From positions 1 to 64,000 of the forward strand of contig JADLDK010000028.1 of assembly GCA_020846715.1 (NCBI GenBank): 64,000 nt of DNA. Direction: 5' to 3'. The notes beneath the pieces are model-generated. The model saw nothing but the letters and a program-made list of their open reading frames with translations. It searched no databases and was not told the origin of the DNA. Positions 2 to 24,835 of the stretch are shown here, piece by piece; within the stretch, counting starts at the first letter, position 1; each line of letters starts with the position of its first letter. This stretch comes from Armatimonadota bacterium (GTDB lineage Bacteria > Armatimonadota > UBA5829 > DSUL01). A program made the position numbers and the translations under genes.

Positions 2-3000
2 GATATAGACTTTCAGGGCCGTGTGAGCGCTGCGTTTGCCCTTGGGCGCACGGGACTCACTGACGATCCTCATGGGCATGGCACACATGTCAGCGGGTCA
101 GTTCTCGGGAATGGGAAGCTCAGCGGATCTGACCCTTCGACTCACAGCTATCTAAACTCTTACGCAGGAGTGGCGCCAGAAGCAAATCTGATTATGCAGA
201 GCGTGCTGGACGCCAATGGCAATCTCGGTGGGCTTCCAGCAAATCTCGCGACACTGTTCACACAAGCCTATCAGGCCGGTGCGCGTGTGCACACAAATAG
301 TTGGGGCGCAACAGTGGCGGGCGTCTATGATACTGACGCCAGTCAGGTCGATCAGTTTGTCTGGTCACATCCGGATGCAGTTGTGCTGTTTGCGGCGGGC
401 AATGACGGCGTGGACGCTGACAGTAACGGTGTTATTGATCCGCAGTCGGTCGGTTCTCCAGGCACCGCCAAGAACTGTATCACTGTGGGCGCAACAGAGT
501 CCGTTCGGTCGTCAGGCGGATATCAGTTTCAATGGGGGACTGGTTCCTGGGCCAGCAATTACCCAGCTCCGCCCATCAAGAACGACCTGATCTCAGACAA
601 CAGTTTTGGCATGGCAGCTTTCTCCAGCCGCGGGCCGTGCGAAGATGGGCGAATCAAGCCCGATATTTGCGCCCCAGGCACGAATATCCTGTCTGTGCGC
701 AGTCACAATCCTGCGGCTGGTACAGGCTGGGGCTCGTACAACGCAGACTATGTGTACATGGGCGGAACGAGCATGGCCACTCCTCTGGCGGCGGGAGCGA
801 CGGCGTTGCTGCGGCAATATTTCCAGCAGGTGAAGGGCATTGACCCTTCCGCCGCCCTGATCAAAGCAACTCTTCTGGTAAGCGCCCGGGACCTGACTCC
901 TGGACAGTATGGCGCCGGCTCATCTCTTGAGATTCCTGCCCGACCGAACAACGTCGAAGGCTGGGGACGGGTGGACCTGCAGGCGGCTGTCAACCCCGCA
1001 CCACCGAATACCCTGCAGCTTGAAGACTACAAAGCCGGTTTACAGACCGGGGAGATCCGCTCTTTCTCTTTCAGGATCGTTACCGCAGGCGTGCCGCTTC
1101 GTATCGCCCTGGCGTGGACGGACTATCCCGGTGACGTGTCTGCATCCAAAGCCCTTGTGAACGACCTGGATCTACAGGTACACGCGCCGAGCGGCCAGGT
1201 CTTTGCGGGCAACGGAACGTCAGACCACGCCAACAACGTGGAAAGCGTGGACATCGCCTCACCTGAGATCGGCACGTACACGGTGACCGTCAGCGGCTAC
1301 AGCGTTCCGCACGGACCACAGCCCTTTGCCCTGGTAGCTCAGGGGGGGCTTCCAAATGCCGCACTCTCCGGACATATTACGTCAACATCTGGCACACCAA
1401 TCCCCAACGCTGCTATTACCGCAACTTCCCTCAGCGCGGTCTTCACAGCCTCTTCCAGACCGGATGGCAGTTATGACATCGCTGTCATTCCGGACGATTA
1501 CAGCGTGGAGGTGTCTAAGAATGGCTGGAGTTTCAATCCGGTATCGCATAGCGTGACAGTACCTGCCGAAGGCGCCGGGAATGTAGATTTTGTAGGGACA
1601 GCCTCTCCCGCCTCCATAAGCGGCTCTGTTTTTGGCGCCCAGACACAACAGGGCTCCGGAACGTGGCAGTCTGTGCACCCCTATCTTAATAACACAAACG
1701 ACTCCGTCACAATCTCCGGACCAGCCAATGCTGTGCGCATGCGGGTGCATTTTGCCCAGATGGCGACAGAGAGCGGGTACGACTTTGTAACGATCAGCGA
1801 CAGCGATGGCGGAAGCGCGACGAGCTATTCCGGCAATAACAATGACTTCTGGAGTCCCTGGATAGACGGAAACGCAGTGCGGGTGAATCTTTCATCAGAC
1901 GTCAGCGTGACGCGGTATGGCTGGCTGATAGATGCGTTCCAGGCCACCATTCCAGGTTCGCCGATGACAGGCGTCACAGTTACAGACAGTCTCTCCGGCA
2001 TCTCGAGCGTCAGCGGCCTCGACGGTTCCTACGTATTTCCCAGCGTGCAGCCGCTGCCGACGACCCTTTCAGCTTCGATTGCCGAGCACGTAATAAAGCC
2101 GTCACAACGCGACATTGCGCCGACACCGGGGCAGAGCGTGCAGGGTCAGGATTTTGTGGCTATACCAGAGGTTCCGGTCATCCACGTCAAACTGACTCAC
2201 AGCTACCCGGGAGACCTGGTTATCAAGACCGGTGTTGGAACCGTCGCCAACCCGGTTCTGATACGCACTATCTGGAATCGCCAAACTGCGAGCAATCCGA
2301 CCCTGACCCTCGATATTCCTGTGGATGAAGGCAATCCCTACTTTCCGCCGAGCGCCGCCCATCCCTGGTTCCTTCAGATCTGTGATCAGTCTGCCTATGA
2401 CCAGGGCACACTGCTGGAGTTTTCGATAAGCAGGAACGGGCGAACGTACGGTTCCTTCCAGACTCCCGCGGCGATAAACGATCTGACCTGTGTGACGGTG
2501 AGCGTTCCCTCCCAGACTCCGATTCGAATAGGCGACGCAAAACAGCTTGCCAACAACACCAGTTGCCTGCTGATGGACAAGATAGTGACGGCCGTGTTCG
2601 CCGATCGCATATACGTGCAGGAATCGGATCGCTCTTCCGCTATCTGTGTGCCAGGAGTCTTTGGAGTCACTGCGGGAGACTGCGTTTCTGTACTGGGCGC
2701 AGTTGATCTGATGGGGTGCGAGCGGATTGTAAATGCGGCTCAGGTGCAGAAGACGGCGCAGGGATCCTGGCCGGTGCGCCCGCTGTTCATCGGAGGCAGG
2801 AATGTGGGTGGTGAGCCGCTGTCACCCGTGACTCCAGGCTTTGCAGATTCAATTGACCTCAACAACATAGGGTTGCTGGTCACTGTGTCCGGCACGGTAC
2901 GAAAAACTGATGCAGGCTGGTTCTATGTGGATGATGGAACTGCGGCGCCAGACGGCAGCGGGTACGGCGGCATACGCGTGGCCGCCGATGTGCTACAGAT

Positions 3001-3139
3001 ACCTCAGACTGGAGCGTTTGTTACCGTGACAGGAATCTCCAACTGCAGAGACTCTGGCTTTGGCGCAGCGCGCATCATCTATCCAAGATCGCAGGAGGAC
3101 ATTGTAGTTCTCCATGACGCACCCTCACCGCAACCGTAG
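2..3139 (+). CDS. Subtilisin-family (S8) secreted serine protease, 5' partial
   Basis: The reading frame is open to the window edge, so the start and the catalytic Asp lie upstream. The catalytic His is in HGHGTHVSG (about residue 26 of the visible part), the oxyanion Asn in FAAGNDG and the nucleophile in GTSMATP (about residue 257). After the protease domain comes a beta-sandwich with the AWTDYPG...LVNDLDLQV signature common behind S8 domains. It is followed by a carboxypeptidase-regulatory-like repeat (SGHITSTSGTPIPNA), a second copy near VTVTDSLSG, a proprotein-convertase-like P domain (LTHSYPGDLVI) and a roughly 200-residue C-terminal module shared with three other proteins in this window. 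It is probably an extracellular protease for polymer breakdown. A GTG at base 23 is inside the domain and is not a credible start. Confidence 0.9.
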   Translation, partial: DIDFQGRVSAAFALGRTGLTDDPHGHGTHVSGSVLGNGKLSGSDPSTHSYLNSYAGVAPEANLIMQSVLDANGNLGGLPANLATLFTQAYQAGARVHTNSWGATVAGVYDTDASQVDQFVWSHPDAVVLFAAGNDGVDADSNGVIDPQSVGSPGTAKNCITVGATESVRSSGGYQFQWGTGSWASNYPAPPIKNDLISDNSFGMAAFSSRGPCEDGRIKPDICAPGTNILSVRSHNPAAGTGWGSYNADYVYMGGTSMATPLAAGATALLRQYFQQVKGIDPSAALIKATLLVSARDLTPGQYGAGSSLEIPARPNNVEGWGRVDLQAAVNPAPPNTLQLEDYKAGLQTGEIRSFSFRIVTAGVPLRIALAWTDYPGDVSASKALVNDLDLQVHAPSGQVFAGNGTSDHANNVESVDIASPEIGTYTVTVSGYSVPHGPQPFALVAQGGLPNAALSGHITSTSGTPIPNAAITATSLSAVFTASSRPDGSYDIAVIPDDYSVEVSKNGWSFNPVSHSVTVPAEGAGNVDFVGTASPASISGSVFGAQTQQGSGTWQSVHPYLNNTNDSVTISGPANAVRMRVHFAQMATESGYDFVTISDSDGGSATSYSGNNNDFWSPWIDGNAVRVNLSSDVSVTRYGWLIDAFQATIPGSPMTGVTVTDSLSGISSVSGLDGSYVFPSVQPLPTTLSASIAEHVIKPSQRDIAPTPGQSVQGQDFVAIPEVPVIHVKLTHSYPGDLVIKTGVGTVANPVLIRTIWNRQTASNPTLTLDIPVDEGNPYFPPSAAHPWFLQICDQSAYDQGTLLEFSISRNGRTYGSFQTPAAINDLTCVTVSVPSQTPIRIGDAKQLANNTSCLLMDKIVTAVFADRIYVQESDRSSAICVPGVFGVTAGDCVSVLGAVDLMGCERIVNAAQVQKTAQGSWPVRPLFIGGRNVGGEPLSPVTPGFADSIDLNNIGLLVTVSGTVRKTDAGWFYVDDGTAAPDGSGYGGIRVAADVLQIPQTGAFVTVTGISNCRDSGFGAARIIYPRSQEDIVVLHDAPSPQP

Positions 3140-3179
3140 TGGACTGATCTGGATTTACGACACTGGCGTGAGCGCATCC

Positions 3180-3746
3180 CTAGAGCAACATCGCAGCGGC
3201 AATTACAAACGCTGCTGACCAGATCGCCACTGCAAGCTCTCGCAGGATGAGATGCGGCCAGCAGAGAACCGTTCCGGGCCCCTGGCATGGCCATCTGTGC
3301 GGAGCGGTATCGGAAGCCGCCACCTCACTATACTCACGCTCACGAGACCAACCCGGGTCTAAAGGAGCAGCCCTGCCCGGGCCAAAGATGAGCCAGACCG
3401 CAGACCCAACGGCCCCAGTAGCGACCGACAGCAGCAGCAGGCGCAGGCCAACGTGCGCTTGGGACGTCCACCTTAGAGCAAAACCCAGCAGTGCGGCGGC
3501 TGCAGCGCCTTTCCACATTCCAGCCAGAGCGTGATTCCAAAGATTCCTGGACAAAACTCGCAGCGGCCACACTCTATAGAATCCATTTACCAGCACAAAC
3601 TCAGCCTTCTCGCGTTCATTGCGCGGAACGAAGAATCCCCTGTTTCGCAGAGCTTTTCGCATGCGCGCGATCTTTCCAGCCAGCCCGGGAGCCACCGCCG
3701 GGTCGATACCTGCGGGCAGTGGTTTCATTTCACGCGGGTATGGCAA
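3180..3746 (-). CDS. Hypothetical membrane protein
   Basis: This 188-residue protein matches no family I recognise. The first 65 residues are basic and polar. Hydrophobic stretches follow at about 75-95 (GAAAAALLGFAL), 98-120 (LLLLSVATGAVGSAVWLIFG) and at the C-terminus (LAVAIWSAAFVIAAAMLL), suggesting three membrane segments. A GGAGGAG sequence lies about 10 bases before the ATG. The start overlaps the end of the Fe-S flavoprotein gene by 22 bases, so the two are probably cotranscribed and translationally coupled. A membrane partner for that flavoprotein is possible but is inferred from position alone. Confidence 0.6.
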   Translation of the reverse strand: MPYPREMKPLPAGIDPAVAPGLAGKIARMRKALRNRGFFVPRNEREKAEFVLVNGFYRVWPLRVLSRNLWNHALAGMWKGAAAAALLGFALRWTSQAHVGLRLLLLSVATGAVGSAVWLIFGPGRAAPLDPGWSREREYSEVAASDTAPHRWPCQGPGTVLCWPHLILRELAVAIWSAAFVIAAAMLL

Positions 3747-4939
3747 GTGATCTCCTCCACATGCTCCAGCGCCTGCATGCTGATTGCGTCTTCAAGGCAG
3801 ATGCGCGCGCACAGCCCGCAACGGGTGCATTTGCTGTCGTCCTTCAGTAGCACGGCCACGTGTCCCGCGCCCGCCCGCACCTGAGCGCCAGGCACCATGG
3901 CAATTACCTGCTCCGGGCAAATCTCCACGCAAAGGCCACACATCGTGCAAGCGTCAGCGTCGAAGACAGTATTGATGTCACAACGAAGACAGCGCGCTCC
4001 CTGTTGCTGCGCGACAACTTCCGGATAGCTGAGCATGACTTCGACTGGTTCTGTCATCCGTTCAGGCTTCTGGCGCGGGTACACATCCCAGTTCACCGGC
4101 ATCCTGTAGGCGGGTAGCGGAATGGGGGTAAGGGCCCGACAGGTGCGCTCTTCCAGCGTCTGCGCTGTGAGGTGTTCGTGAACCTGACGCGCTACCTGCT
4201 GCGCGTTTGCCATAGCATAAATGAAGGGCTCTGGGCCAATCGCGGCATTCCCCGCAACAAACGTACTCGGCGCATCCACGTGTGGTCCTGGATGTCCGGA
4301 CGCCAGGACAGCAGCGTCAAACTGAGACTCAAGCTCGCCCAGAGCTTCCCGGCCGATTTTCTGCGCCAGACGAAGCTCGACACCGAGAAGGCCAATGGCG
4401 TCAACCTCCGCCTGAAGGACTGCGGCAGGGAGAACAGACTCAGGCATAGCACACAGCTGTCCGCCAGCCCGGTTTTTCTCTTCAAACACAACGCAGCGAT
4501 ATCCGAGGCGCGCCAGGTCGTGGGACAGCGTTAGCCCGGCTGGCCCAGCGCCTACGACAGCTACACTCATGCCGTTTGGCTCCGGATGGGCCGATCCGGA
4601 CGCGGTAGACAGCTCCAGCCCGTAGTGAGAGTCCACTAAAGCCTCTGGCCCAAGCTGTTGACAGACAAACGTCTTCAAGTCCCGAATAGAGACAGGAGCG
4701 TCAATATTCCGGCGATTGCAGGCATCCTCACAGGGCGCAGAACATGCGCGACCGCAGACACTGGCGAGCGGATTGCGCGCCCGGGCAATTCGATAGGCAT
4801 CCAGGTAGCGCCCCTCGCTGATGGCCACAACGTAGCCGCGCGCATCGGTCCCCAGCGGACACGCCACCCGGCACGCGACATTGTGGGAATAATAATCCAA
4901 ATCCGGCTTGCGCGTTTTGAACTGTTGAGACTCTGCCAT
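3725..4939 (-). CDS. GltD-like FAD/iron-sulfur protein lacking the NAD(P)H domain
   Basis: This 404-residue protein resembles the glutamate synthase small subunit/dihydropyrimidine dehydrogenase Fe-S flavoprotein group. The N-terminal cysteines are C23, C27, C62, C66, C70 and C74 (the C-x3-C-x3-C type). A dinucleotide fold has VVGAGPAGL at 128-136, and GVELR near 186 matches the FAD domain. The C-terminus carries two ferredoxin motifs, CTMCGLCVEICP (331-342) and CTRCGLCARIC (371-381). The chain passes from DAAVLASG (208-215) almost directly to the closing FAD segment FVAGNAAIGPEPF (227-239), so the inserted NAD(P)H-binding subdomain of about 130-150 residues seems absent. The start chosen is ATG at 4939, preceded by GAGGGAG; a longer frame to 5020 lacks a better site. 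Confidence 0.75.
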   Translation of the reverse strand: MAESQQFKTRKPDLDYYSHNVACRVACPLGTDARGYVVAISEGRYLDAYRIARARNPLASVCGRACSAPCEDACNRRNIDAPVSIRDLKTFVCQQLGPEALVDSHYGLELSTASGSAHPEPNGMSVAVVGAGPAGLTLSHDLARLGYRCVVFEEKNRAGGQLCAMPESVLPAAVLQAEVDAIGLLGVELRLAQKIGREALGELESQFDAAVLASGHPGPHVDAPSTFVAGNAAIGPEPFIYAMANAQQVARQVHEHLTAQTLEERTCRALTPIPLPAYRMPVNWDVYPRQKPERMTEPVEVMLSYPEVVAQQQGARCLRCDINTVFDADACTMCGLCVEICPEQVIAMVPGAQVRAGAGHVAVLLKDDSKCTRCGLCARICLEDAISMQALEHVEEITCHTRVK

Positions 4940-5100
4940 AGCTCCCTCTGCCAGAAGCGTCATCGTACTGAACCTGATTCCACGCGGGGACCTAACGACG
5001 CTCCATCGCTTTACCCCCATCCGCGGCTACCGTGCCGAGCAGATCATAGGCTGGTTTACTACGCACGGCAAGAGCTTCTGCGCCGATTACCAGACAGGCT

Positions 5101-5187
5101 CCACTCCTCGAGGAGCTGCAGGAACGCGAAGAAAGCATGCGCGGCGCACTCCAGGGGAAGTTTGCGGTAATCACGGGCGGCGCTGGC
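5101..5187 (+). pseudogene. Possible remnant of a short-chain dehydrogenase N-terminus
   Basis: In one frame this stretch reads PLLEELQEREES, then an ATG at 5137 followed by RGALQGKFAVITGGAGAL. The last part matches the first beta strand and glycine-rich turn of short-chain dehydrogenases (L-x-GK-x-AVITGGA). The frame then runs into the 3' end of the opposite-strand gene at 5191, and no dehydrogenase continues. It could be a decayed fragment left after a rearrangement or chance. The match is only about 15 residues. Confidence 0.2.
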
Positions 5188-5190
5188 GCC

Positions 5191-7353
5191 CTAGAACTTC
5201 ATCCCGAGCTTCATTTCGGCTTCGTATCTCCGTCTCTGTTCGGCAGCCGCCTCGTCATCGATGCGAGACCCGCTAAGAGACAGATTGAAGTCGCTGCCAA
5301 GGTTGCGCGTGACGCCGAGACTGATGCGCCGGGACGACACGCCCGCGCTCTCCTGCGTCTCGCTGTACTCATAGCCGCCGGTCAGTTGCGTAGCCCGCGC
5401 CACTGCGACACCCAGTCCCAGCCGCGTCTGGAACCACTGCCGCCCGATGGCGTACTCGTCTTTGTAGGAGTAGTCGCCCGTCAGCGCCAGAATTCCGAAT
5501 GTTGACTTCAGACCGAGCGAGCGGCTGGAGTACTGCTGCGGGTTTCCCTTGCTGTCTTCTGGGTTATCCGCCAGAGCCGCAGTCAGCCCGAGATACTTCC
5601 AGGGCTCCAGAGTGAAGCTGAGCATCGTGGTGTCGATGCTGTAGTCTCCGGCGTCCCGGGTCTTGTAGCCGCCTGCAATGTTGAAATAGTCGAGAGGTTT
5701 GGCGGAGGCATTGATATCCTTCACCGCCAGTGTATTATCGTCGGAGTCCGAAAACGCATACCCACCGGATAGTTTCAGGGTCTTGTAAGGCTGGGCATCC
5801 AGACGGATGTCGTGCGTGCGAAAGCCTGCGCTTGCCTGCCGGTCAGTGATGCCGGCGGAAAGCTTCCAGCGGTCGCTGGCAGCAGTCGCGACACGCAGCC
5901 CGGCGCTGTTGTCTGCTCCGCCGAGATCGCTTCCTCGTCCAGCGAAGTTCGCCTGCAGTTCGACAACCTTGAGAGGCCTGGCTTTGACTCCAATATCAAC
6001 CGCCGTAGTGTCCTCACCTGACTGTACAGTGTTGGCCTGGAAAGCCGCCGTTAACGCAACGTCCTTGAGTGGCGCGGCGCTGAGGCCCACATTCAACGCG
6101 CTGGCGGATCCGGTGGCCTCGGAGTCCGTGAGCTTCATCCCCGCATTGACAGCCACATCCTTCAGGAGGCTTGTATTCAGCGTCACCTGTTGCGTAGTCG
6201 TGCGGCTGAGCGCATCCTGTGGACCCTGAAGCGTATCCGTCCATACAAACTGTGTGCTGGTTTTCTGGCCGATGGCGGAGGCCAGCTTGAACTCGTTGAC
6301 CTGCACGTCAGTGACCCCGCTGCCGGTCTGCGTCGCCGTAGCGGTGCGAGTAAACAGAAAAGCTGTTCCGGGCGCAACGTTGTAGCCAAGCGTGTTGTTG
6401 AGCGTTGTCACTGTCTTGGCGCCCCCGGAAAAATCCCTGCGGTCATAAGACGATCCCAGCGACAGGCGAGAGCCTTCCGGCTTCCACGCGAGCGCCAGAT
6501 TTTGCTGCCCTTCACCGCCCTTGAAGCCGTAGTCCTTGGCTGCGGAGAAGGCCTGCCCCGCGCTGACGTATGAGCCCGTGATGCTGAGATCGCCAATCTG
6601 CGTCGTGCCGCCAAACCTGGCCGCCGCGCGCTGCCAGAGACTGCCAGAGTTGGCGGCGCCTCCCTGATCCATATACACGGAAGAGGCAAAGCTGGTGTTG
6701 GCGCCAAGCTGGGTCTTGCCCTGAAAGCCCAGAATGGCGTCTGCAGCATTTGGATCTGTGGCGCTCTGGCGATAGAGAGCACTCATCTGTAAGCTGGAGG
6801 AGCCCGAAGAATAAAGATTCAGGGCGAGCGGAAGGGCAAATCCACTACCACTGCGTACAGAAGTTGCGGGGTCGAGGCCGTACTCCACCTTGGCCATACT
6901 GCTGGCGCCCAGAGGCGAGGTGAACGCGATAGTCCCGGAAGCGGGGTCCAGATTGTAGTCAACTCCGCGCAGACCCGGACGGCCGTCAATCAAAACCGTC
7001 TCACGTCCCGGAACGATACCTTTCCACGAGAGTCTGAACGGACCACGAGAGCCATTGCCGGAAATGACATCCCTCGCAAAACCGCGCTCCAGATCGGAGG
7101 AGCCAGCGGCGCTGAGGGTGGTTCCACCAGGAGAAATCTGTGCCGCACGGCCCACCCCTGACTCGCTGAAGCTCTGCGATGCAAATCCTGCCTTGACGGC
7201 AGGCAGCCAGACGGCCGGCAGGCACAGACACAGACAAATGGCCTTCCGGCTTAGCGCCGGCAGACCACTGAAGCGCGCGCCCGGTTTTGCTCCAGTCACA
7301 TGCATCTTTGACTCCGTACTATGAGACGCCCGAAGACGCATAATGTTTCCCAT
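5191..7353 (-). CDS. Secreted outer-membrane beta-barrel-like repeat protein
   Basis: This 720-residue protein begins with a basic region and a hydrophobic segment (AICLCLCLPAVWLPAVKAGFA), a probable signal peptide ending near residue 56. Next is a small domain with RGPFRLSWKGIVPGRETV and RGVDYNLDPASGTIAFTSP, a pattern seen in surface proteins that start a barrel or passenger. The remaining 500 or so residues alternate polar and hydrophobic positions in strand-length units rich in Gly, Ser, Thr and Ala (for example KTLKLSGGYAFSDSDDN, YLGLTAALADNPEDSKG). They end in a short strand, YEAEMKLGMKF, with a C-terminal Phe, which fits an outer-membrane barrel insertion signal. The ATG at 7353 follows AGGAAGGAGG. 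It is divergent from the glycosidase at 7448. The cargo or ligand cannot be told. Confidence 0.65.
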   Translation of the reverse strand: MGNIMRLRASHSTESKMHVTGAKPGARFSGLPALSRKAICLCLCLPAVWLPAVKAGFASQSFSESGVGRAAQISPGGTTLSAAGSSDLERGFARDVISGNGSRGPFRLSWKGIVPGRETVLIDGRPGLRGVDYNLDPASGTIAFTSPLGASSMAKVEYGLDPATSVRSGSGFALPLALNLYSSGSSSLQMSALYRQSATDPNAADAILGFQGKTQLGANTSFASSVYMDQGGAANSGSLWQRAAARFGGTTQIGDLSITGSYVSAGQAFSAAKDYGFKGGEGQQNLALAWKPEGSRLSLGSSYDRRDFSGGAKTVTTLNNTLGYNVAPGTAFLFTRTATATQTGSGVTDVQVNEFKLASAIGQKTSTQFVWTDTLQGPQDALSRTTTQQVTLNTSLLKDVAVNAGMKLTDSEATGSASALNVGLSAAPLKDVALTAAFQANTVQSGEDTTAVDIGVKARPLKVVELQANFAGRGSDLGGADNSAGLRVATAASDRWKLSAGITDRQASAGFRTHDIRLDAQPYKTLKLSGGYAFSDSDDNTLAVKDINASAKPLDYFNIAGGYKTRDAGDYSIDTTMLSFTLEPWKYLGLTAALADNPEDSKGNPQQYSSRSLGLKSTFGILALTGDYSYKDEYAIGRQWFQTRLGLGVAVARATQLTGGYEYSETQESAGVSSRRISLGVTRNLGSDFNLSLSGSRIDDEAAAEQRRRYEAEMKLGMKF

Positions 7354-7447: not shown

Positions 7448-9907
7448 ATGATTCGACTCTACCCTCTGATACTGGCCCTTGCAGGGGTATTGTGGTCTGC
7501 GCCCGCTCACGCGCTTCTTGTGTGTCTGGACGCCGGCGCCCCGATCAACGAAAGCACTGGCCAGATTCAACTCAACGCGGCAGCGCTGAAGGCTACCGGC
7601 ACGCAGTACGTTCGCGTAAACTTTATTCTAGGACCGTGGAGCAATCCCAATGACGCCACCAAACGCGGCCCGCAGAATATGAGCTGGAAGCAAACTTACG
7701 ACCAGATCATCCACAGCCTGACTTCTCAGGGGATTGAGGTGTACGCTCTGATAGGTGCGCAGGCTGTCCACAGCTCGGCAGGCGGCAACTACAACAGCGA
7801 TCAATGGGTCAATGACTACGTAGCAAACTTCACCACCATCGTTGGCCAATTCAAAGATCGCGTGCGGGTTTACGAGTCTTTCAATGAACCCAACGACTGG
7901 GCCGGCGGCACAACCGCCCAGGTGCAGCCATTCTGGTTTGCAAAGATGCTGCAAAACATCTACCTTTCGGTGAAGATCAATAACGGGCACCAGAGTGACC
8001 AGAGCTGGCAGGTAACGCTGGTGAGTGGGCCTGGCTTCAGCCACGACATGGACACCGTCGCCACTTACATGCAGCAGACCTACCAGGCGGGTATCAACCA
8101 GCTTTCGTGGACGTCAGTCAAGAACAGCTACGGAACGTATCCGTTGGACGGCATCGGCTATCACATCTATGTCGCTCAGGGATCAACAGACACAACCACA
8201 GTCCGCAACGCTGTCAACAAGAACCTCAACGCAATCTGGAGTACAGTCAAGAGCTTTGAGGGGTCCAACACGCCTAAGAAGCTCTGGGTATCGGAGTGGA
8301 GCTGGAACACGGCATCGGTTTCAGAGAGTGGGCAGGCCAGCAATCTGACGACTGTGTTCAATCTGTTCAAAAGCGACGCACGCGTCGCGCTGGCGAGCTG
8401 GTTTCAGATTACGGACTTTGGGGCCTCCGACAAGTGGGGGCTCTTTCGGGCGGGCGGCCTCACTGAGGCTAACAAGAAGCCGTCCTGGCAGGCCTTCCAC
8501 GATTTTGCGGGGGCGCAGAACACTCCCGGCTCCATTACAGGCACAGTGCGTGACACACTGGGCAATTACCTGCAGGGTGTACAAGTAACCGCTTCGCCGG
8601 GCGCTTTCTCTACTACGACAGCGGCAGACGGAAGTTATACTTTATCTAATATACCTGTGGGAACTTATACTGTAGCTGCACAGAAGTTTGGCTACCGCCC
8701 TGGCAGTCAAGCGGTGAATGTGACATCGGGCACAGCGGCAACGACCTCTTTTGTCCTGGGGTTACCAGCTACAGTCACATCTCCGGCCGGCGCAAAGCAG
8801 AGAACGGATGGGAGCTTCGTCAGACTGGACAACGCAGTCGTGACCGCAAACTTTGCCGGAGACCGCATCTATATCGAGGCGGCCGATCGGTCCAGCGGCA
8901 TCGGAGTAACCGGCGCGCAGGCGGCAGTGGGAGACCGCGTGAACGTGACGGGTACGATGGTAAGTGCCGACGGAGAGCGTGTGTTCACATCGGCCGGCGT
9001 TCAAGTGGTTGCCTCAGGCCAGCCTGTCCCTTTTCCGCTGTCTATGCGCAACTCCACCCTTGGGGGTGAATCATTTGCGGCTCAGGGAGGTGTTGTGGAT
9101 AATGCGACCACCAATCCTGCCACTCCGGGCATTGGGCGCAACAATGTGGGACTTCTGGTTACAACATGGGGAAACGTCACGTTTGTTGACGGTCCGGGTG
9201 CGTGGTTTTACATTGACGACGGCTCAGGGCTGAAAGACGGGTCTGGCCATGTCGGTGTACGGGTCGCGGCTTCCGGGCTCACTTTGCCCGCCGAAGGGAA
9301 CCTGGTGCGCATCACAGGTATCAGCGGAGTGACGCGGATTGGCTCCAACAATGCCAGAATTGTGAGGGCGCGGCAGCAGAGCGATATTGTAAGGCTCTAC
9401 CCTCAAACGCTGGAGCCAATCGTCGGCAACGCCAGTTTTGAGGATGGAGCGCTTGCGCCCTGGAGCGCCTGCGGGTCAACGGATAACATTATTACGGGGA
9501 CGTGGTTTGGTGGAATCACGGCGCACTCTGGCAATGCCTTCGCCGGCACGGCCACGAACGGAGGAGTGCGGTCCGGTGGCTACTACCAGACGGTGGCTGT
9601 GGAGCCGGGCACGTCCTGTGTGGCCAAAGTCTGGAGCGCGGTATTTCGAGCTGCCAATTCCACCACATCCACGCTGTCGCGTATCGGGATTGACCCGAGT
9701 GGCGGAACGAATCCCGCTTCAGCGAACATCGCCTGGTCCGCCTGGGACATGCAGAGCGCAGACTACACCTTCGTCTGGCGGCAACTCCAAACACCTGCGG
9801 TTACCTCGATTTCTTCTACTGTGACTATCTTTCTGGACTTTCAGCAAAGCGAAAGCGCGGGCTGGCATGTCAACTGCTTCGACGACGCAACGCTTGAGGT
9901 CCACTGA
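7448..9907 (+). CDS. Secreted clan GH-A glycosidase with accessory modules
   Basis: This 819-residue protein has a signal peptide (1-22, ending SAPAHA). The TIM-barrel region at about 23-350 carries the clan GH-A marks: an acid/base candidate E147 in SFNEPND and a nucleophile candidate E283 in LWVSEWSW. Sequence alone does not fix the GH family; GH39 or GH5-like is plausible. A carboxypeptidase-regulatory-like domain follows at about 360-435 (GSITGTVRDTLGNYLQGV, DGSYTLSNIPVGTYTV). Then comes the shared C-terminal module (about 437-655; IYIEAADRSSGIGV, NNVGLLVTTWG, FYIDDGS, VRITGIS). The last domain, at about 660-819, starts IVGNASFEDGALAPW and resembles a carbohydrate-binding jelly roll. GGAGAGGA precedes the ATG. 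It is probably exported to attack polysaccharide. Confidence 0.85.
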   Translation: MIRLYPLILALAGVLWSAPAHALLVCLDAGAPINESTGQIQLNAAALKATGTQYVRVNFILGPWSNPNDATKRGPQNMSWKQTYDQIIHSLTSQGIEVYALIGAQAVHSSAGGNYNSDQWVNDYVANFTTIVGQFKDRVRVYESFNEPNDWAGGTTAQVQPFWFAKMLQNIYLSVKINNGHQSDQSWQVTLVSGPGFSHDMDTVATYMQQTYQAGINQLSWTSVKNSYGTYPLDGIGYHIYVAQGSTDTTTVRNAVNKNLNAIWSTVKSFEGSNTPKKLWVSEWSWNTASVSESGQASNLTTVFNLFKSDARVALASWFQITDFGASDKWGLFRAGGLTEANKKPSWQAFHDFAGAQNTPGSITGTVRDTLGNYLQGVQVTASPGAFSTTTAADGSYTLSNIPVGTYTVAAQKFGYRPGSQAVNVTSGTAATTSFVLGLPATVTSPAGAKQRTDGSFVRLDNAVVTANFAGDRIYIEAADRSSGIGVTGAQAAVGDRVNVTGTMVSADGERVFTSAGVQVVASGQPVPFPLSMRNSTLGGESFAAQGGVVDNATTNPATPGIGRNNVGLLVTTWGNVTFVDGPGAWFYIDDGSGLKDGSGHVGVRVAASGLTLPAEGNLVRITGISGVTRIGSNNARIVRARQQSDIVRLYPQTLEPIVGNASFEDGALAPWSACGSTDNIITGTWFGGITAHSGNAFAGTATNGGVRSGGYYQTVAVEPGTSCVAKVWSAVFRAANSTTSTLSRIGIDPSGGTNPASANIAWSAWDMQSADYTFVWRQLQTPAVTSISSTVTIFLDFQQSESAGWHVNCFDDATLEVH

Positions 9908-9972: not shown

Positions 9973-10045
9973 TGATTGATAATGCGGGAGGAGCCGGGGG
10001 ATGGATCACATGTCCGAGCACGCCCCGCAAAGAAAGGGAGAAACG

Positions 10046-10810
10046 ATGAAAGCTTCTTTTAGCCTTCTGGTCCTGGCTGCGACTGCTGTGTGCGCTAACG
10101 CAGCGCCAGTCGTAACCACCACCCAGGGTAATGACGGCGATCTGGCAAAAAGCCCCAGCGCGATTGATCTGATTGAAGGCAAGATTGCGACAGAGCTGCC
10201 CGGAGACAAGGGATGGCATCCAGCCAATAGCGACCCACTGGATAAGTTGCCAGCGTTCACTGACGGTCAGGGAATGCGCGCAACCGGTCTGACCGGTTTG
10301 CTGAACGACTTTCCAGGCCCGGGCACACCGACCAAACTTATTCAGTACGATCTGAACTCTCCCACAGACATCTGGGAGATTGACGTGTTCTCTGGCAACA
10401 ACGGCAGAGACGGCCGCGTGTTTCACACTTATACGGTGGCCTTCTCAACAGACGGCGCCAATTACAGCAATCCGATCTACGTGCAGTCGCATCCCTCTGG
10501 CACTCTCAACAACGCGAACAACAATCAGTGGGCGAGAGTGTTGACGCAGCTCACGGATAGCGCCGGCCCGCTGGCGACTGGTGTCACCAACCTGCGCTTC
10601 AGCTTCTACGCAGTGGACAACACTCAGGGACAGATGCGGGATCCGTTTGACGGTGTTAACCCGTTTACAGGTATTGACGACGGACTGGGCGCACCGATCT
10701 CATCTCCATTGATTCTCGAGATTGATGTGGTTCCGGAGCCGGCTTCCGTAGCCGCGATGGCCCTTGGGCTGACCGGATTTGCCGCGACCTTCCGCCGACG
10801 GCGCGCGTAA
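10046..10810 (+). CDS. PEP-CTERM sorting-signal protein
   Basis: This 254-residue exported protein has a signal peptide ending CANA. The body is a beta-rich domain of about 205 residues of unknown function (TELPGDKGWHPAN, LTGLLNDFPG, GRVFHTYTVAFSTDGANY, GQMRDPFDG). It ends with a classical PEP-CTERM signal: VPEPAS, a hydrophobic span and RRRR. Such tails are processed by exosortases, and none lies in this window. GGGAG precedes the ATG at 10046; an upstream ATG at 10001 would bury the signal peptide. The next gene is a close tandem paralogue of the body but has a different C-terminus. Confidence 0.85.
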   Translation: MKASFSLLVLAATAVCANAAPVVTTTQGNDGDLAKSPSAIDLIEGKIATELPGDKGWHPANSDPLDKLPAFTDGQGMRATGLTGLLNDFPGPGTPTKLIQYDLNSPTDIWEIDVFSGNNGRDGRVFHTYTVAFSTDGANYSNPIYVQSHPSGTLNNANNNQWARVLTQLTDSAGPLATGVTNLRFSFYAVDNTQGQMRDPFDGVNPFTGIDDGLGAPISSPLILEIDVVPEPASVAAMALGLTGFAATFRRRRA

Positions 10811-10828
10811 ATCCAGCGTTCAAGTCAT

Positions 10829-10858
10829 GGGAAGCGCAGTGCCCACTCTGCGCTTCCC
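10829..10858 (+). other. Intergenic hairpin between tandem paralogues
   Basis: A perfect 11-base-pair inverted repeat (GGGAAGCGCAG at 10829-10839, CTGCGCTTCCC at 10848-10858) with an 8-base loop sits between the two paralogous genes. It has no T run, so it is a poor intrinsic terminator. A role in mRNA processing or partial attenuation is possible. Confidence 0.5.
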
Positions 10859-10877
10859 CTGCCGAAAGGAACAATCG

Positions 10878-12224
10878 ATGAAAGGCTATTTTCTGCCGCT
10901 TGCTGCCGCTGTGCTGGCAGTATCTCTGAGTGCCCCCGGGATCACTGCACCCGTTGTCGTGACGACGCAGGGTGAGCTGGGCGATCTGGCAGCCGCCTAC
11001 AGCACCACTGATCTGATCGAGGGAATGATCGCAACCGAGCTGCCTGGCGACAAAGGTTGGCATCCTGCCAACGCCGACCCCTTGGACAAGCTGCCGGCTT
11101 TCACTGACGGACAGGGCATGCGGCCAAGCGGCCTTACGGGCCTTCTGAACGATTTCCCAGGCGCGGGCACACCGACAAAGCTGATTCAATATCAGTTTGA
11201 CAGCCCAAAAGACATTGACGAGATTCGTGTTTTCAGCGGGAACAAGAATAATACTGACGGACGTGTTTTTCACACTTACACTGCAGAGTTCTCACCCAAC
11301 GGGATAGACTTCACGCCGCCGATCTATGTCCAGTCGCATCCCTCTGGCACTATTAACAATGACGCCGGAATATTCAACCACTGGCACAACGCGTTGACGC
11401 AGTTGACGGACGATTCCGGAAAAGTTGCTTATGGCGTGCGCTATTTGCGACTCAAATTCTATTCCGTTGACAACACCGGTGGTCAGATGCGCGATCCGTT
11501 TGACGGCGAGAACCCGTTTACCGGTACGGATGATGGATTGAGCGCAGGCTTTGTCTCTCCGTTGATTCTGGAGATCGACGTGTTCGGCGCCAACAGTGTT
11601 GCGCAGCCAGTTGCCACTATTGGCGAAGCGCGCGCAAAGCCGCTGGGGATGCTGGTTTCACTGAGTGACAAGGTTGTCACCAAGAGCGCTACAACCGAGT
11701 TCTTTATGGAAGAGGCGAACCGCAGCGCCGGAATCAGAGTAGTTTCTGCAGAGAACCCACCGGCAAACCAGAAGGTGTCGATCACGGGACAGATTGTAAC
11801 CTCGTCCACCAACGGCGAGAAGTATCTGGAAGCCACGGGACAGCCTGCCACTGTTGGGGCGGCTGCGACAGTTGGCCCACTCGATATGCGAAACGGCGTC
11901 ATCGGAGGTCAATCCGCAACTGGTAGCGCAGGGCTGGCGACAGATGGTCTTCTGGTCACGACATGGGGCAAAGTCACCGGCATTGATATTGGCAACAGCG
12001 TCGTGTACATTGACGATGGCAGCAATGCAGCCAACGATACGCCGGTCGGAACTTTAGGCGAGCAGGTCGCGGGGCTTAAGGTCGGTCCTGGTGATGTGTT
12101 CAGCCTCCTGCCGGGTCAGTATGTCGGTGTGACGGGGATTTCCCGTCTGGACGCCGGCGGCCTCGGCATTATCCGACGCGTAGAGCCGCTGGACTTTGGC
12201 TCTTCTATAGTGAGTCTCGACTGA
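10878..12224 (+). CDS. Secreted paralogue of the PEP-CTERM protein, with the shared C-terminal module
   Basis: This 448-residue protein has a signal peptide (MKGYFLPLAAAVLAVSLSAP). Residues of about 25-240 are strongly similar to the body of the upstream PEP-CTERM protein, including TELPGDKGWHPAN, LDKLPAFTDGQGMR, YVQSHPSGT and GQMRDPFDGENPFTG. The PEP tail is absent. In its place is the roughly 200-residue module found in the subtilase and both glycosidases (ANRSAGIRVV, VSITGQIV, LDMRNGVIGGQ, GLLVTTWGKVTG, VYIDDGSN, YVGVTGISRLD). AAGGA lies 8 bases before the ATG at 10878. The pair looks like a tandem duplication followed by a C-terminal swap. Confidence 0.85.
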   Translation: MKGYFLPLAAAVLAVSLSAPGITAPVVVTTQGELGDLAAAYSTTDLIEGMIATELPGDKGWHPANADPLDKLPAFTDGQGMRPSGLTGLLNDFPGAGTPTKLIQYQFDSPKDIDEIRVFSGNKNNTDGRVFHTYTAEFSPNGIDFTPPIYVQSHPSGTINNDAGIFNHWHNALTQLTDDSGKVAYGVRYLRLKFYSVDNTGGQMRDPFDGENPFTGTDDGLSAGFVSPLILEIDVFGANSVAQPVATIGEARAKPLGMLVSLSDKVVTKSATTEFFMEEANRSAGIRVVSAENPPANQKVSITGQIVTSSTNGEKYLEATGQPATVGAAATVGPLDMRNGVIGGQSATGSAGLATDGLLVTTWGKVTGIDIGNSVVYIDDGSNAANDTPVGTLGEQVAGLKVGPGDVFSLLPGQYVGVTGISRLDAGGLGIIRRVEPLDFGSSIVSLD

Positions 12225-19791: not shown

Positions 19792-19945
19792 ACTCTTGTG
19801 CATTTTTGCGCAAAGGTCGCGATTCTATAGCAACCAAGTCCGGATGTCCGCCGGCAAAAGACCTGACACTTGTTCTTTCTGTCGTGGCAACTCTCCGCTG
19901 GCTGTCCGGAAGCGTCTTACCTCACGAAAGCAGAGGAGGAGTGAA

Positions 19946-21982
19946 GTGGCTTACGAGACTTCTGACAACAGCAAGACCTGGGCTGTCGTGGCAGCCATTG
20001 TGGTCGTTGTGTTCGCAGCGATTGGCTGGCTGATTTTTCGGCCAAGCGGTGAAGGCGGCGCACAGGGACCGGGTGGCGCTACCCTGACAAGAATGCCGGG
20101 TGACGCCAACTCCATTATCAAGAATCGCCAGATGTCGCCTGAGGACGTTCTGGCGGCGCTGACAACCTACATGCCCTCCGGCAAGCATGACGACTACATG
20201 ATGTTCGCCTCTGGTGGGCATGGTGGCCAGGTGCTGGTGATAGGCGTGCCTTCAATGCGACTGCTCAAGGTGATCGGGGTGTTCACTCCGGAGCCGTGGC
20301 AGGGCTGGGGTTTTTCGGAAGAAACCCGTGCCGTGATCAACGGCAAAGCTGGGGATGGCACTGATCTGTTGTGGGGCGACACGCATCACCCGGCCTTGAG
20401 TGAGACCAATGGCGAGTATGACGGCCAGTTTCTCTTCATCAACGACAAGGCCTCAGCGCGTGTCGCAGTCATCGATCTCCGAGACTTCGAAACCAAGCAG
20501 ATTGTTAAGAACCCGCTGGCCATCAACGACCACGGCGGCGCCTTTGTCACTCCGGACACCGAATGGGTTATTGAAGGCGGTCAGTATGCGCATCCTATCG
20601 GTGGAAAATACGCGTCCCTGGCTGATTACAAGAAATCCTACAGGGGGTTGGTCACCTGCTGGAAGTTCGATCGCAAGAAGGGCAGCATAGACCCGTCCAA
20701 ATCCTTTGCTATTGAGTTGCCACCGTACTGGCAGGATCTGTCGGACGCCGGCAAACTTGTGAGTGACGGGTGGATATTCCTGAACTCGTTCAATACGGAG
20801 ATGGCCACAGGCGGCGGAGAAAAGAAGGGCGGCGTCTGGTTTGAGGCCGGCACAACCCAGCGTGACATGGACTACCTGCACGTCATCAATCTCAAGAAGG
20901 CCATCGCGACAGCGGCTGCAGGCAAGACGACCACCATCAACGGATTCCGGATGATCCCGCTGCAGACTGCAGCCTCTGAGAGCATTCTGTACTTTGCCCC
21001 AGAACCCAAAAGCCCGCACGGGGTGGATGTCACCCCTGGCGGCGAGTATATGGTAGTCTCCGGCAAGCTGGACCCACATGTCACAATTTTCAGCTTCCAG
21101 AAGATGATGGATGCTATCAAGAACAAGTCATTCTCCGGGAAAGACCCTTACGGCGTCCCGATCTTTGACTTCAAGAAGGTTGTGGAAAAGCAGGTGGAGT
21201 TGGGCCTGGGGCCACTTCATACGCAGTTTGACGACAAGGGATACGCCTATACGAGCCTTTTCCTGGACAGCGCTGTGGCGCGGTGGTCACTGGGTGGGCC
21301 GTACGAAAAACTCCACTCAGATAAACCGTGGACGCTCGTCAAGAAGATACCTGTGCAGTACAATGTCGGACATCTTGCCGCCGCGGAAGGTGATACCGCC
21401 AAGCCCGCCGGTCACTTCCTGGTCGCGTTGAACAAGTGGTCGGTGGACCGGTTCGCTAATGTGGGCCCTCTTCTGCCGCAGAACCTGCAGCTCGTGGACA
21501 TTTCCAATCCCGGCGATAAGATGCAGGTGCTGTATGACATGCCCATTGGAATCGGCGAACCTCACTATTCGCAAATCATCAAGGCCGACAAGATCAAGGC
21601 GTGGGACGTGTACCCTGAGATCGGATGGTCGCCTGTTACGCAGAGCAAGTCTCCAAAAGCCACGACTGTTGGCCAGGAGCGCATCGTGCGCAACGGAAAT
21701 ACTGTTGAAGTGTTCATGACGGCCATCAGGAGTCATCTGAACCCGGAGCATGTCGAGGTGAAGAAAGGCGACAAGGTGATCTGGCACGTGACGAACGTGG
21801 AGCGAGCGCGCGACGCAACGCACGGATTCGCGCTGTTCAATCACAACCTCAGCCTTGAACCGGGTGAAACGGAGACTATCTCCTTCACAGCGACGAAAGA
21901 GGGAGTCTATCCGTACTACTGCACGGAGTTCTGCTCAGCGCTTCACCTGGAGATGACCGGGTATCTTCTGGTGAAACCGTAG
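19946..21982 (+). CDS. nosZ: Nitrous oxide reductase, clade II type
   Basis: This copper enzyme of 678 residues reduces N2O to N2 at the end of denitrification. All seven CuZ histidine segments are visible: SGGHGGQ, DTHHPALS, NDHGGAF, QYAHP, PHGVDV, LHTQF and VGHLAA. The C-terminal cupredoxin carries CuA ligands C659, C663, H667 and M670 (CTEFCSALHLEM). The N-terminus has no twin-arginine motif but a single hydrophobic segment (about 12-30), which acts as a Sec signal anchor or signal peptide, as in clade II enzymes. The start is GTG at 19946, six bases after AGAGGAGGAG. A longer frame from 19796 exists but lacks a ribosome site. It is first in the nos operon. Confidence 0.95.
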   Translation: MAYETSDNSKTWAVVAAIVVVVFAAIGWLIFRPSGEGGAQGPGGATLTRMPGDANSIIKNRQMSPEDVLAALTTYMPSGKHDDYMMFASGGHGGQVLVIGVPSMRLLKVIGVFTPEPWQGWGFSEETRAVINGKAGDGTDLLWGDTHHPALSETNGEYDGQFLFINDKASARVAVIDLRDFETKQIVKNPLAINDHGGAFVTPDTEWVIEGGQYAHPIGGKYASLADYKKSYRGLVTCWKFDRKKGSIDPSKSFAIELPPYWQDLSDAGKLVSDGWIFLNSFNTEMATGGGEKKGGVWFEAGTTQRDMDYLHVINLKKAIATAAAGKTTTINGFRMIPLQTAASESILYFAPEPKSPHGVDVTPGGEYMVVSGKLDPHVTIFSFQKMMDAIKNKSFSGKDPYGVPIFDFKKVVEKQVELGLGPLHTQFDDKGYAYTSLFLDSAVARWSLGGPYEKLHSDKPWTLVKKIPVQYNVGHLAAAEGDTAKPAGHFLVALNKWSVDRFANVGPLLPQNLQLVDISNPGDKMQVLYDMPIGIGEPHYSQIIKADKIKAWDVYPEIGWSPVTQSKSPKATTVGQERIVRNGNTVEVFMTAIRSHLNPEHVEVKKGDKVIWHVTNVERARDATHGFALFNHNLSLEPGETETISFTATKEGVYPYYCTEFCSALHLEMTGYLLVKP

Positions 21983-22016
21983 GACTGTTCGGGAGCACCC
22001 TTACGAGACGCAGAAT

Positions 22017-22670
22017 ATGAAAAAACGACTGAATACAATTATCGGACCGCGAGTGCCGCCCGATCTCCAGAAACAAGACTCTCTGAGGTTTCTGCTCCCG
22101 ACACTACTGTTGTCGCTTTCGGTGGTGTGCCTGCTGGTAAGTATCTCTCAGCCTTACTGGCGGCTGAAGCTGCACGCTCCCCAGTATCCTGGAGGGTTGT
22201 CCGTGCAGGTTTACCTCACCCACACCACCGGCGACGTCAAAGAGATTGACGGACTGAACCACTATATCGGGATGAAGTCTTTGTCGGAAGCGGCAAAGCT
22301 GGAGAGGTCCATAAGCGTCGCCGCTGTGCTGGTGCTGGCAGTTCTATTGCTGGGGGCGACATACGTTCACACACGGTGGGCGGTCTTGCTGGTCATCCCG
22401 TGCCTGATCTTTCCATTTGGATTTCTGGGGGACCTGTACTACTGGTTGCGGGCTTTTGGGCTGAACCTCAATCCAGAAGCCCCGCTCAATCATGCGGTCA
22501 AACCCTTTGTGCCAACGATTCTCGGAGAGGGATTCGTCGGGCAATTCAAGACAGTCGCATCCGTTGACAGCGGGTTCTACCTGGTGTGCATGGGTTGCGT
22601 GCTGGCGATTGCCGGGTTGTGGTTCCATCGCCTTGCGTACAAGCCTCTGCAGGACCAGGCCTTGTCGTGA
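22017..22670 (+). CDS. nosB: NosB-like membrane protein of the nos cluster
   Basis: This 217-residue integral membrane protein has hydrophobic segments at about 26-46, 100-117, 122-142 and 186-206. Between the first two is an extracytoplasmic-looking loop with SQPYWRLKLHAPQYPGGLSV and GDVKEIDGLNHYIGM, a pattern I associate with the membrane protein encoded next to clade II nosZ (NosB). It follows nosZ by 34 bases and its TGA overlaps the nosDF start as GTGA. Its exact biochemical role is not established. It may anchor NosZ or pass electrons. The NosB name rests on position plus this loop. Confidence 0.75.
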   Translation: MKKRLNTIIGPRVPPDLQKQDSLRFLLPTLLLSLSVVCLLVSISQPYWRLKLHAPQYPGGLSVQVYLTHTTGDVKEIDGLNHYIGMKSLSEAAKLERSISVAAVLVLAVLLLGATYVHTRWAVLLVIPCLIFPFGFLGDLYYWLRAFGLNLNPEAPLNHAVKPFVPTILGEGFVGQFKTVASVDSGFYLVCMGCVLAIAGLWFHRLAYKPLQDQALS

Positions 22671-24835
22671 GATCTGCTTTTCTTGCTGCGCTGCCAGTCG
22701 GCTTCGCGGCGCTTTTGTGCGCCGGGTCCCTCGGAGCCCGCACACTGACAGTCACACCTTCAGACAATCTCCAGGCTGCGCTGGCCATGTCTCGCGCAGG
22801 CGATACGGTGCGGGTTGTCGGCGGTCACCACCAGGGCCACTTCAAGGTTTCTGTACCAATGACGCTGGCGGGTGAGAACAGCCCGATTCTGGACGGTGGT
22901 GGTCATGGCACGGTGCTTGCTATAGATGCGCCCGATGTCACCGTGCGCGGATTCCATCTTCGCGGAAGCGGCGACTCCCTGGATATGGAAAACTCCGGCA
23001 TTGTCGTTCTGGCGCCGCGAGCCCGAGTTGAGAACAACACAATTTCTGATGCGCTCTTTGGCATCTTTCTGCGAAAGGCCGACGATTCAGTTCTCAGGAG
23101 TAATCAAATTACCGGCAAGGACCTGGATGTGCCACGCCGGGGAGACCTGATCCGCATCTGGTACAGCAATGGTGTGACAGTTGAGGATAACACCCTGAGC
23201 CAGGGGCGCGATGCGGTCCTCTGGTACTCACAAGGCTTGAAGATTCGGCGCAACCGCGCCCTCAACAGCCGCTACGGGCTTCACTTTATGTACTGCGACG
23301 ACGCAGACATCGAGGGCAACACTCTATCCAACAACTCGGTCGGCATCTTTTTGATGTACAGCAGGAGACTGCGGCTGGTCGGCAACACGATCGCGAGCAA
23401 CCGGGGTCCAAGCGGCTACGGTGTGGGTCTGAAAGATATGGACGATGCGTTGATTGAGAACAACGCACTCGTGGACAACCGCATCGGCATCCACACGGAC
23501 AGTTCTCCAAGAGAGATTGACAGCATTCAGACAATAGCGCGAAACCTTATCGCCTACAACGATGTTGGCATCAGCATCCTCCCAGATACGCAGCGCAACT
23601 ACATAACCACAAACAGCTTCCTGGAGAACGGGGAGCAGGTGCAGGTGGCGGGATCCGGCCAGTTGCAGGGCAACATTTGGGCAGAGCGCGGCCGGGGAAA
23701 CTACTGGAGCGACTACGCAGGTTACGACAGGAGCGGGCGAGGTGTGGGGGAGGTACCCTACCGATCGGAAAGTCTCTTCGAGAATCTCACACAACGAGCG
23801 GAGGTCTTGAAGGTGCTGGCTGGCAGCCCGTTCCAGGTAGCGCTGGACTTCGCGGCTCGCGCGTTTCCTGTGTTCAGACCTGCTCCGAAACTGACCGATC
23901 CCAATCCGCTTATGACGCCTGTGCTGCCGCAAGGCGTCCCGGCACTCCCGCGTAAACAGGGACGAGGCCTGGCTGGCACAGCAACTGGTCTGATGCTTGC
24001 GCTAGTTGCGATCGCTGGCCTGCCGCGTGCGCAGAAGGACCCTCGGCGTCCGAGACGTCTGCGCACACCGACCGCTGATCCACTCATCGAAGTGGAAGCT
24101 CTCACAAAAAGATTCGGCGCAATCGAAGCGGTCAAGGGCGTCTCCTTTGCGGTAAGACAGGGAGATGTCGTAGCTCTGTGGGGCCCAAACGGAGCTGGAA
24201 AGACCACCGTACTTCGATGTCTTCTGGGTCTGTTTCCTTTCAGTGGCCAGGTCAGGGTGGTCGGCGTAGATATGCGATCCAGAGGGCGTCTGGCGCGCAG
24301 GTTTATCGGATTTGTTCCGCAAGAGCTCAGCTTTCACGACAGACTCTCGACGGCGGAGACACTTGAGATGTACGCTCGTCTGAAGCACGCGCCGCTTGCC
24401 CGGGTTAAAGAGTTGCTTGAAACTCTCGGACTGATGGAGCATCATCGCAAGAGCGTGCGCGCGCTGTCTGGAGGACTGAAGCAGCGGCTGGCTCTGGCGT
24501 GCGCACTGCTGTCGGACCCGCCCATTCTGCTGCTGGATGAGCCGACCTCCAATCTGGATCAGGCCGCCAGAGACGATTTTTTGAGTTTGTTGTCCGATCT
24601 GAGCCGCGCCGGCAAGACTCTGGTATTCACGTCACACAGACCCGAAGAGGTCGAGTCGCTTGCGACACGCATTATCCTGATGGAAAATGGCAAGATTGTC
24701 CGGGATACCCAGATCAAAGGAACTCCCTCTGAGGCGGTCACGGATGCGGATGCTCATTCTGAGTTGAAAGACGCCACAGATATTCTTGCGTCCGCGAACC
24801 CGAACGAGTGCGGCCTTGCTCTGGAGGGACATTAG
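22667..24835 (+). CDS. nosDF: NosD-NosF fusion: periplasmic copper-maturation domain plus ABC ATPase
   Basis: One unbroken 722-residue frame joins two normally separate proteins. Residues 1-24 form a signal peptide. About 30-400 is a right-handed beta-helix of NosD type with repeats such as NSGIVVLAPRARVENNTIS, RYGLHFMYCDDADIEGN and GIFLMYSRRL. A hydrophobic span at about 433-452 (GTATGLMLALVAIAGL) can cross the membrane. From about 471 a complete NosF ATPase follows: Walker A GPNGAGKTT (about 505-513), Q-loop FVPQELSF, signature LSGGLKQR, Walker B ILLLDEPTSNLD and H-loop FTSHRPEE. The topology would put NosD outside and NosF inside. GTG at 22667 overlaps the nosB stop (GTGA). NosD/F/Y mature the CuZ site. 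Confidence 0.88.
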   Translation: MRSAFLAALPVGFAALLCAGSLGARTLTVTPSDNLQAALAMSRAGDTVRVVGGHHQGHFKVSVPMTLAGENSPILDGGGHGTVLAIDAPDVTVRGFHLRGSGDSLDMENSGIVVLAPRARVENNTISDALFGIFLRKADDSVLRSNQITGKDLDVPRRGDLIRIWYSNGVTVEDNTLSQGRDAVLWYSQGLKIRRNRALNSRYGLHFMYCDDADIEGNTLSNNSVGIFLMYSRRLRLVGNTIASNRGPSGYGVGLKDMDDALIENNALVDNRIGIHTDSSPREIDSIQTIARNLIAYNDVGISILPDTQRNYITTNSFLENGEQVQVAGSGQLQGNIWAERGRGNYWSDYAGYDRSGRGVGEVPYRSESLFENLTQRAEVLKVLAGSPFQVALDFAARAFPVFRPAPKLTDPNPLMTPVLPQGVPALPRKQGRGLAGTATGLMLALVAIAGLPRAQKDPRRPRRLRTPTADPLIEVEALTKRFGAIEAVKGVSFAVRQGDVVALWGPNGAGKTTVLRCLLGLFPFSGQVRVVGVDMRSRGRLARRFIGFVPQELSFHDRLSTAETLEMYARLKHAPLARVKELLETLGLMEHHRKSVRALSGGLKQRLALACALLSDPPILLLDEPTSNLDQAARDDFLSLLSDLSRAGKTLVFTSHRPEEVESLATRIILMENGKIVRDTQIKGTPSEAVTDADAHSELKDATDILASANPNECGLALEGH

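Follow-up and report, generated by a model that had tools for sequence, protein, structure and literature searches.

A tandem OB-fold module as a proposed interchangeable C-terminal retention tail of exported proteins in one class of Armatimonadota

Four copies of a shared module

The window, by which we mean the whole stretch of 64,000 nucleotides that was analysed, contains four genes for secreted proteins in which an earlier note, made from the sequence alone, had recognised a common C-terminal module of about 200 residues (Table 1). The N-terminal domain of the 819-residue protein (7448-9907) is glycosidase-like only by eye, without a Pfam match, and the real start of the ORF at 27077-29386 probably lies upstream of position 27077.

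Table 1. Position of the module copies and of the genes that bear on them in the window.
Feature	Position	Strand	Remarks
Subtilase ORF	2-3139	+	Peptidase_S8 and CarboxypepD_reg (Pfam); continues past the window's left edge; carries copy 1
Module copy 1	2522-3112	+	C-terminal in the subtilase ORF; motif, profile, predicted structure
Copy 1, predicted OB barrel 1	~2561-2758
Copy 1, predicted OB barrel 2	~2876-3085
819-aa ORF	7448-9907	+	Signal peptide, glycosidase-like N-terminal domain, CarboxypepD_reg, copy 2, C-terminal domain
Module copy 2	8777-9394	+	In the 819-aa ORF; profile, predicted structure
Copy 2, predicted OB barrel 1	~8816-9013
Copy 2, predicted OB barrel 2	~9155-9370
PEP-CTERM protein	10001-10810	+	PF07589 over cut-off; PEP-CTERM tail (10730-10798) in place of the module
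Module-tailed paralogue	10779-12224	+	N-terminal domain in common with 10001-10810; module starts where the PEP-CTERM tail would
Module copy 3	11613-12191	+	C-terminal in the paralogue; profile
Glycosidase ORF	27077-29386	+	Glyco_hydro_cc and 3-keto-disaccharide hydrolase domain (3keto-disac_hyd; Pfam); carries copy 4
Module copy 4	28748-29377	+	C-terminal in ORF 27077-29386; profile

The four modules are homologous, as had been claimed, but only three of the four proteins end with the module; in the 819-residue protein, copy 2 is followed by about 170 residues of another domain. The motifs quoted for the module (MRNxGG, FYIDDGS and VxVTGIS among them) are present in the copies, although their wording was only approximate: the subtilase reads IYVQESDRSSAICV, GGRNVGG, NNIGLLVTVSGTV, FYVDDGT and VTVTGIS, and the paralogue of the PEP-CTERM protein reads FFMEEANRSAGIRV, MRNGVIGG, TDGLLVTTWGKVT, VYIDDGS and VGVTGIS. 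A profile built only from the modules of two genomes (G218 and G222), which excludes the window copies to avoid circularity, recovered all four of them with E values of 4.9e-60, 8e-58, 2.3e-43 and 1.8e-37, and gave zero matches to reversed versions of the same proteins. Chance similarity, which would have refuted the shared module, is therefore ruled out.

The domain following copy 2 (9395-9907, about 160 residues, NASFEDG..) was also observed at L015, L031 and L040, standing before or after the module in several proteins, and is probably a carbohydrate-binding-like repeat.

Fold and family of the module

The structures predicted with AlphaFold2 for copy 1 (2522-3103; pLDDT 96.3, pTM 0.91) and copy 2 (8777-9388; pLDDT 92.2, pTM 0.89), with module copies from their own genome as the input alignment, have the same order of elements: a short helix leads into a first set of five strands, and a linker containing a conserved GG connects these to a second set of five. 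Their best Foldseek matches are OB folds, including YgiW, RMI2, RPA14/32, Cdc13/Stn1 and the tandem-OB HIN-200 domains, and the best match to a single barrel is 1nnx (YgiW/YdeI), with a TM score of 0.66-0.67 by target length. In the same line, the OB model PF01336 of Pfam is matched in 16 of 60 single copies (best E value 1.2e-8), and the module profile has remote matches to the OB fold of a secreted endonuclease of known structure (9sf8, E 1.3e-4, first barrel) and to archaeal RPA14 (E 1.2e-3, second barrel). Altogether, the two confident models and these matches support the prediction that the module consists of two consecutive OB barrels of the OB-fold superfamily, as the earlier note had guessed from the strand pattern. 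The modules are acidic, with a median pI of 5.2 and a net charge of -3, and only 3 of 59 have a pI above 8. Their conserved polar residues include those in the DRSxGI loop, the GER turn and the DDGS loop.

The absence of any nameable sorting tail was likewise borne out, as no curated Pfam or NCBIfam family covers the two-barrel module in the four window proteins or in the 60 modules scanned. The best curated matches among those 60 are generic single-OB models, and NirD/YgiW-type NCBIfam models match weakly in up to 6 of them. A match of the 819-residue protein to NF052345 (anammox S-layer) was discarded, since it comes from the cargo and vanishes when modules are scanned alone. No description of such a domain was found in the literature, and plasmids gave no match.

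Copy number, position and cargo

A profile of the four window copies matched about 60 more proteins in stretches of the same genome, and a six-frame search, the method used for all whole-genome counts, gave about 76 module matches, a few of which are fragmentary, in this source genome of 3.2 Mb (94% complete). The four copies first noticed are thus all real, but they are only the window's share of a much larger set. Mean column identity across 60 copies is just 27%, so that, judging by this divergence, the family is an old one and no recent repeat. Two module copies (G000:C50:84111-84629 and G232:C1:50025-50615) carry in-frame stops, which indicates that some copies are decaying. The ORF at L039 (12988-13296, + strand) holds a module fragment only, like a pseudogene remnant; it shares with the last 37 residues of the protein at L033 (1545-4685, + strand) an extension of 37 residues after the module (TLTLSAPAIVNEVMKPQG..) that is 86% identical.

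Of 125 modules examined in three genomes, 106 reach to within 20 residues of the stop codon, the module not being C-terminal in about 15% of proteins. A signal peptide was called in 51 of the 63 module proteins of the home genome by a hydrophobicity heuristic (not SignalP), and several of the proteins without a call are clipped by the edges of contigs or fetched stretches, or extend upstream. Position, signal peptides and the class distribution described below agree with the proposal that this is a C-terminal domain of secreted proteins of the lineage. The 59 cargo parts searched with Pfam are diverse. Their enzymes include subtilases, glycosidases (glucoamylase, alpha-amylase, GHL10 and others), amidase, metallophosphatase and glucose/sorbosone dehydrogenase; sulfatase-modifying-like proteins, CarboxypepD_reg, fn3 repeats, beta-helix, NosD-like and PQQ beta-propeller parts were found as well, among others. 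No nuclease family is among the 25 Pfam families listed for these 59 parts, a list outside which 24 rarer families remain. Moreover, the NCBIfam choice-of-anchor Q domain (choice_anch_Q) was matched in five module-tailed cargo proteins.

Distribution in the phylum

A search of 291 genomes of the phylum found the module to be abundant in 24 of the 28 genomes of one class, with at least 11 matches in each, and to be absent outside the class or present in one or two copies, mostly as weak matches. The class restriction applies within the phylum, no sensitive search having been made beyond it. Full six-frame counts gave 68, 65, 104, 64, 38 and 70 modules in six genomes and none in two. In other classes, the strong single copies are followed by another 404-438 residues within large multidomain proteins, and two weaker ones are found near the end of GHL10-like hydrolases, a label which rests on similarity to copies of the home genome. 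The inference is that this class took an older domain and multiplied it as a tail. The only subtilase of one module-free class genome (L075 of G221, 2823-5360, - strand) has GWHMFSIP and GWNMVGNPF motifs at its end, perhaps another C-terminal domain.

Replacement of PEP-CTERM tails and exchange of modules

The tandem neighbours at 10001-10810 and 10779-12224 are 67% identical over their common N-terminal domain, and their alignment parts after ...SPLILEIDV, where the former goes on with VPEPASVAAM... and the latter goes into the module. A second tandem pair with alternative tails, 59% identical, was found at L067, and about five more cargo families have both tails at 25-45% identity, some of these pairs being remote (25-32%). 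In total there are 11 homologous pairs in about seven cargo families, and for 9 of 47 PEP-CTERM proteins there is a homologue with the module as its tail. The module thus takes the place of the PEP-CTERM tail on homologous cargo, which favours the anchoring role suggested in the earlier note; the sugar binding that the note named beside it is still possible. A PEP-CTERM tail (PEP motif, transmembrane helix and basic cluster) occurs in none of 125 module proteins. Genes of both kinds also lie close together: 22 of 41 PEP-CTERM genes have a module no more than 5 kb away, where 7.7 would be expected at random, and none of 2000 random placements reached the observed number. The test used approximate lengths for 32 contigs, and secreted genes may cluster for other reasons, which could add to the proximity.

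Each of the 24 class genomes with the module has exosortase (PF09721) and PEP-CTERM proteins, and the four module-free ones have neither, with at most one weak PEP-CTERM match under the cut-off. These four, which belong to two lineages and represent about two independent losses, have few or no subtilases. Since they also lost most subtilases, a general loss of the secretome explains the co-occurrence equally well, and the match may reflect nothing but that loss. Moreover, exosortase is found in 240 of the 291 phylum genomes, mostly without the module, so that the two are no obligate partners. One exosortase locus of the home genome (L061) has genes for a sugar transferase, a chain-length kinase, an export protein, exosortase, an EpsI-like protein, an ABC exporter and glycosyltransferases; with these identities, assigned by reading the sequences, it reads as a classical exopolysaccharide cluster. 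Comparable exopolysaccharide loci with exosortase have been described for PEP-CTERM systems (PMC1569441). Many class genomes have two exosortase types, one of about 300 residues and another in an open frame of 530-630 residues, which suggests a fused second domain.

Modules are also exchanged between cargo proteins, as judged from two tandem pairs with cargo of equal identity. In the first one (L109 of G218, 1871-4552 and 4590-7094), the cargo parts are 57% identical and the modules 97%, which can be read as a recent replacement or conversion that affected only the tail, whereas in the other (L132), with cargo again 57% identical, the modules share only 29%, the background level.

Comparison with known systems

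The closest parallel is the PEP-CTERM/exosortase system (Haft et al. 2006, PMC1569441), whose tails are also C-terminal, occur by the dozen in a genome and are carried by unrelated cargo with signal peptides, at times on homologous cargo, in neighbouring genes and with the same presence or absence within the class, a match that may only reflect secretome loss. The module differs in being predicted as a folded tandem OB of about 200 residues that has neither a PEP motif nor a transmembrane helix nor a basic tail, and in its larger cargo (median ORF of 830 residues versus 260). The secreted nucleases ExeM, YhcR and NucH (PMC6085458; 9sf8, 9sf9) are likewise extracellular and are described as having two OB regions, the first of which can be aligned with the module; in them, however, the OB region is N-terminal to the EEP nuclease domain and serves catalysis, whereas the module forms the C-terminal tail of many proteins that are not nucleases. 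YgiW/YdeI (BOF, NirD/YgiW family) is a periplasmic, stand-alone single barrel and no tail, in contrast to the tandem tail described here. The C-terminal domain (CTD) of the type IX secretion system (T9SS) is also a folded domain at the end of dozens of secreted enzymes, which become attached to the surface. Its fold is an Ig-like beta-sandwich, unlike the OB barrels of the module models, and SprA was not found in the class genomes. Finally, the choice-of-anchor models of NCBIfam embody the same idea of one cargo with alternative C-terminal anchors, but they describe the cargo, and the module itself has no model.

A retention tail and its alternatives

Class-wide copy number, C-terminal position, tail interchange and mutual exclusion with PEP-CTERM lead us to propose that the tandem OB module is an interchangeable C-terminal retention tail, which would keep exported proteins at the surface or in the matrix; we give this reading a probability of roughly 0.55, the ligand being inferred without binding data. 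The cargo would cross the inner membrane by Sec and leave the cell by an outer-membrane route not identified, and the folded double barrel would then retain it on the cell surface or within the exopolysaccharide matrix through a common ligand, for which a matrix polysaccharide is the first guess. The module might in this way give large enzymes the surface retention that PEP-CTERM/exosortase gives to small proteins. Since proteins that otherwise match carry it instead of the PEP-CTERM tail, the module is probably a lineage-specific means of holding enzymes at the cell surface. On the other hand, neither a ligand nor an attachment machine has been identified.

OB folds can bind oligosaccharides, and glucoamylase, alpha-amylase, GHL10 and other glycosidases are among the cargo, so the module could instead be an accessory domain similar to carbohydrate-binding modules (CBMs), which directs enzymes to polysaccharide of the environment rather than to the producing cell. 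The single copies of other classes, placed inside multidomain proteins or GHL10-like enzymes and not amplified as tails, fit such a role, but subtilases, amidase, metallophosphatase, sulfatase-modifying-like, beta-helix and PQQ beta-propeller cargo have no common substrate, and neither the substitution for a PEP-CTERM tail nor the C-terminal position in nearly all cases is what one would expect of a CBM; we regard this explanation as unlikely. Binding of extracellular DNA or RNA, by which enzymes would be tethered to a DNA-containing matrix, has in its favour that the nearest relatives of known structure are nucleic-acid OB folds, namely RPA14 and the first OB of a secreted endonuclease (E 1.3e-4), and that DNA degradation by ExeM depends on its YhcR-like region, which has two OB regions (PMC6085458). 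The acidic charge of the modules (median pI 5.2), unlike that of typical DNA binders, makes this very improbable, and it is retained because the nearest relative of the first barrel is a nuclease domain.

A conserved C-terminal domain restricted to one class and carried by dozens of unrelated cargo proteins also recalls the T9SS CTD, LPXTG and PEP-CTERM, and the conserved GG-containing linker between the barrels would suit a targeting signal for a dedicated translocon or attachment enzyme. T9SS itself was rejected, as SprA (TIGR04189) stays under the cut-off in all 28 class genomes, seven weak partial matches of 40-90 residues being discounted, and the type II system does not discriminate either, because GspD-like secretins occur in 27 of the 28, including module-free genomes. 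No candidate partner gene was found, although not all genes were profiled systematically, and a T9SS-like signal is considered quite doubtful. A bolder speculation is that the OB tail is read by a class-specific outer-membrane translocon or attachment machine, an undescribed sorting system handling most large exported enzymes, for which the odds seem low; its standing as a parallel to exosortase/PEP-CTERM, sortase/LPXTG and T9SS is just as tentative.

An unnamed folded family tails some 40-100 exported proteins per genome across one class, that is, much of the secretome. The replacements suggest that in bacteria a binding domain can take over from a membrane-sorting signal, and homologous proteins differing only in a PEP-CTERM or module tail make the function directly testable. 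Moreover, with a module profile many hypothetical proteins of the class could be assigned to the surface or the matrix.

Another locus in the window

Apart from the module, the window contains a nitrous-oxide reductase locus (19796-26126) with a Sec-type NosZ (TIGR04246, E 7.9e-259). The ORF after NosZ (22586-24835) encodes NosD fused to an ABC ATPase (NosF-like), a fusion that looks unusual, and is followed by putative NosY-like and NosL-like ORFs, recognised by eye, and a putative cytochrome c.
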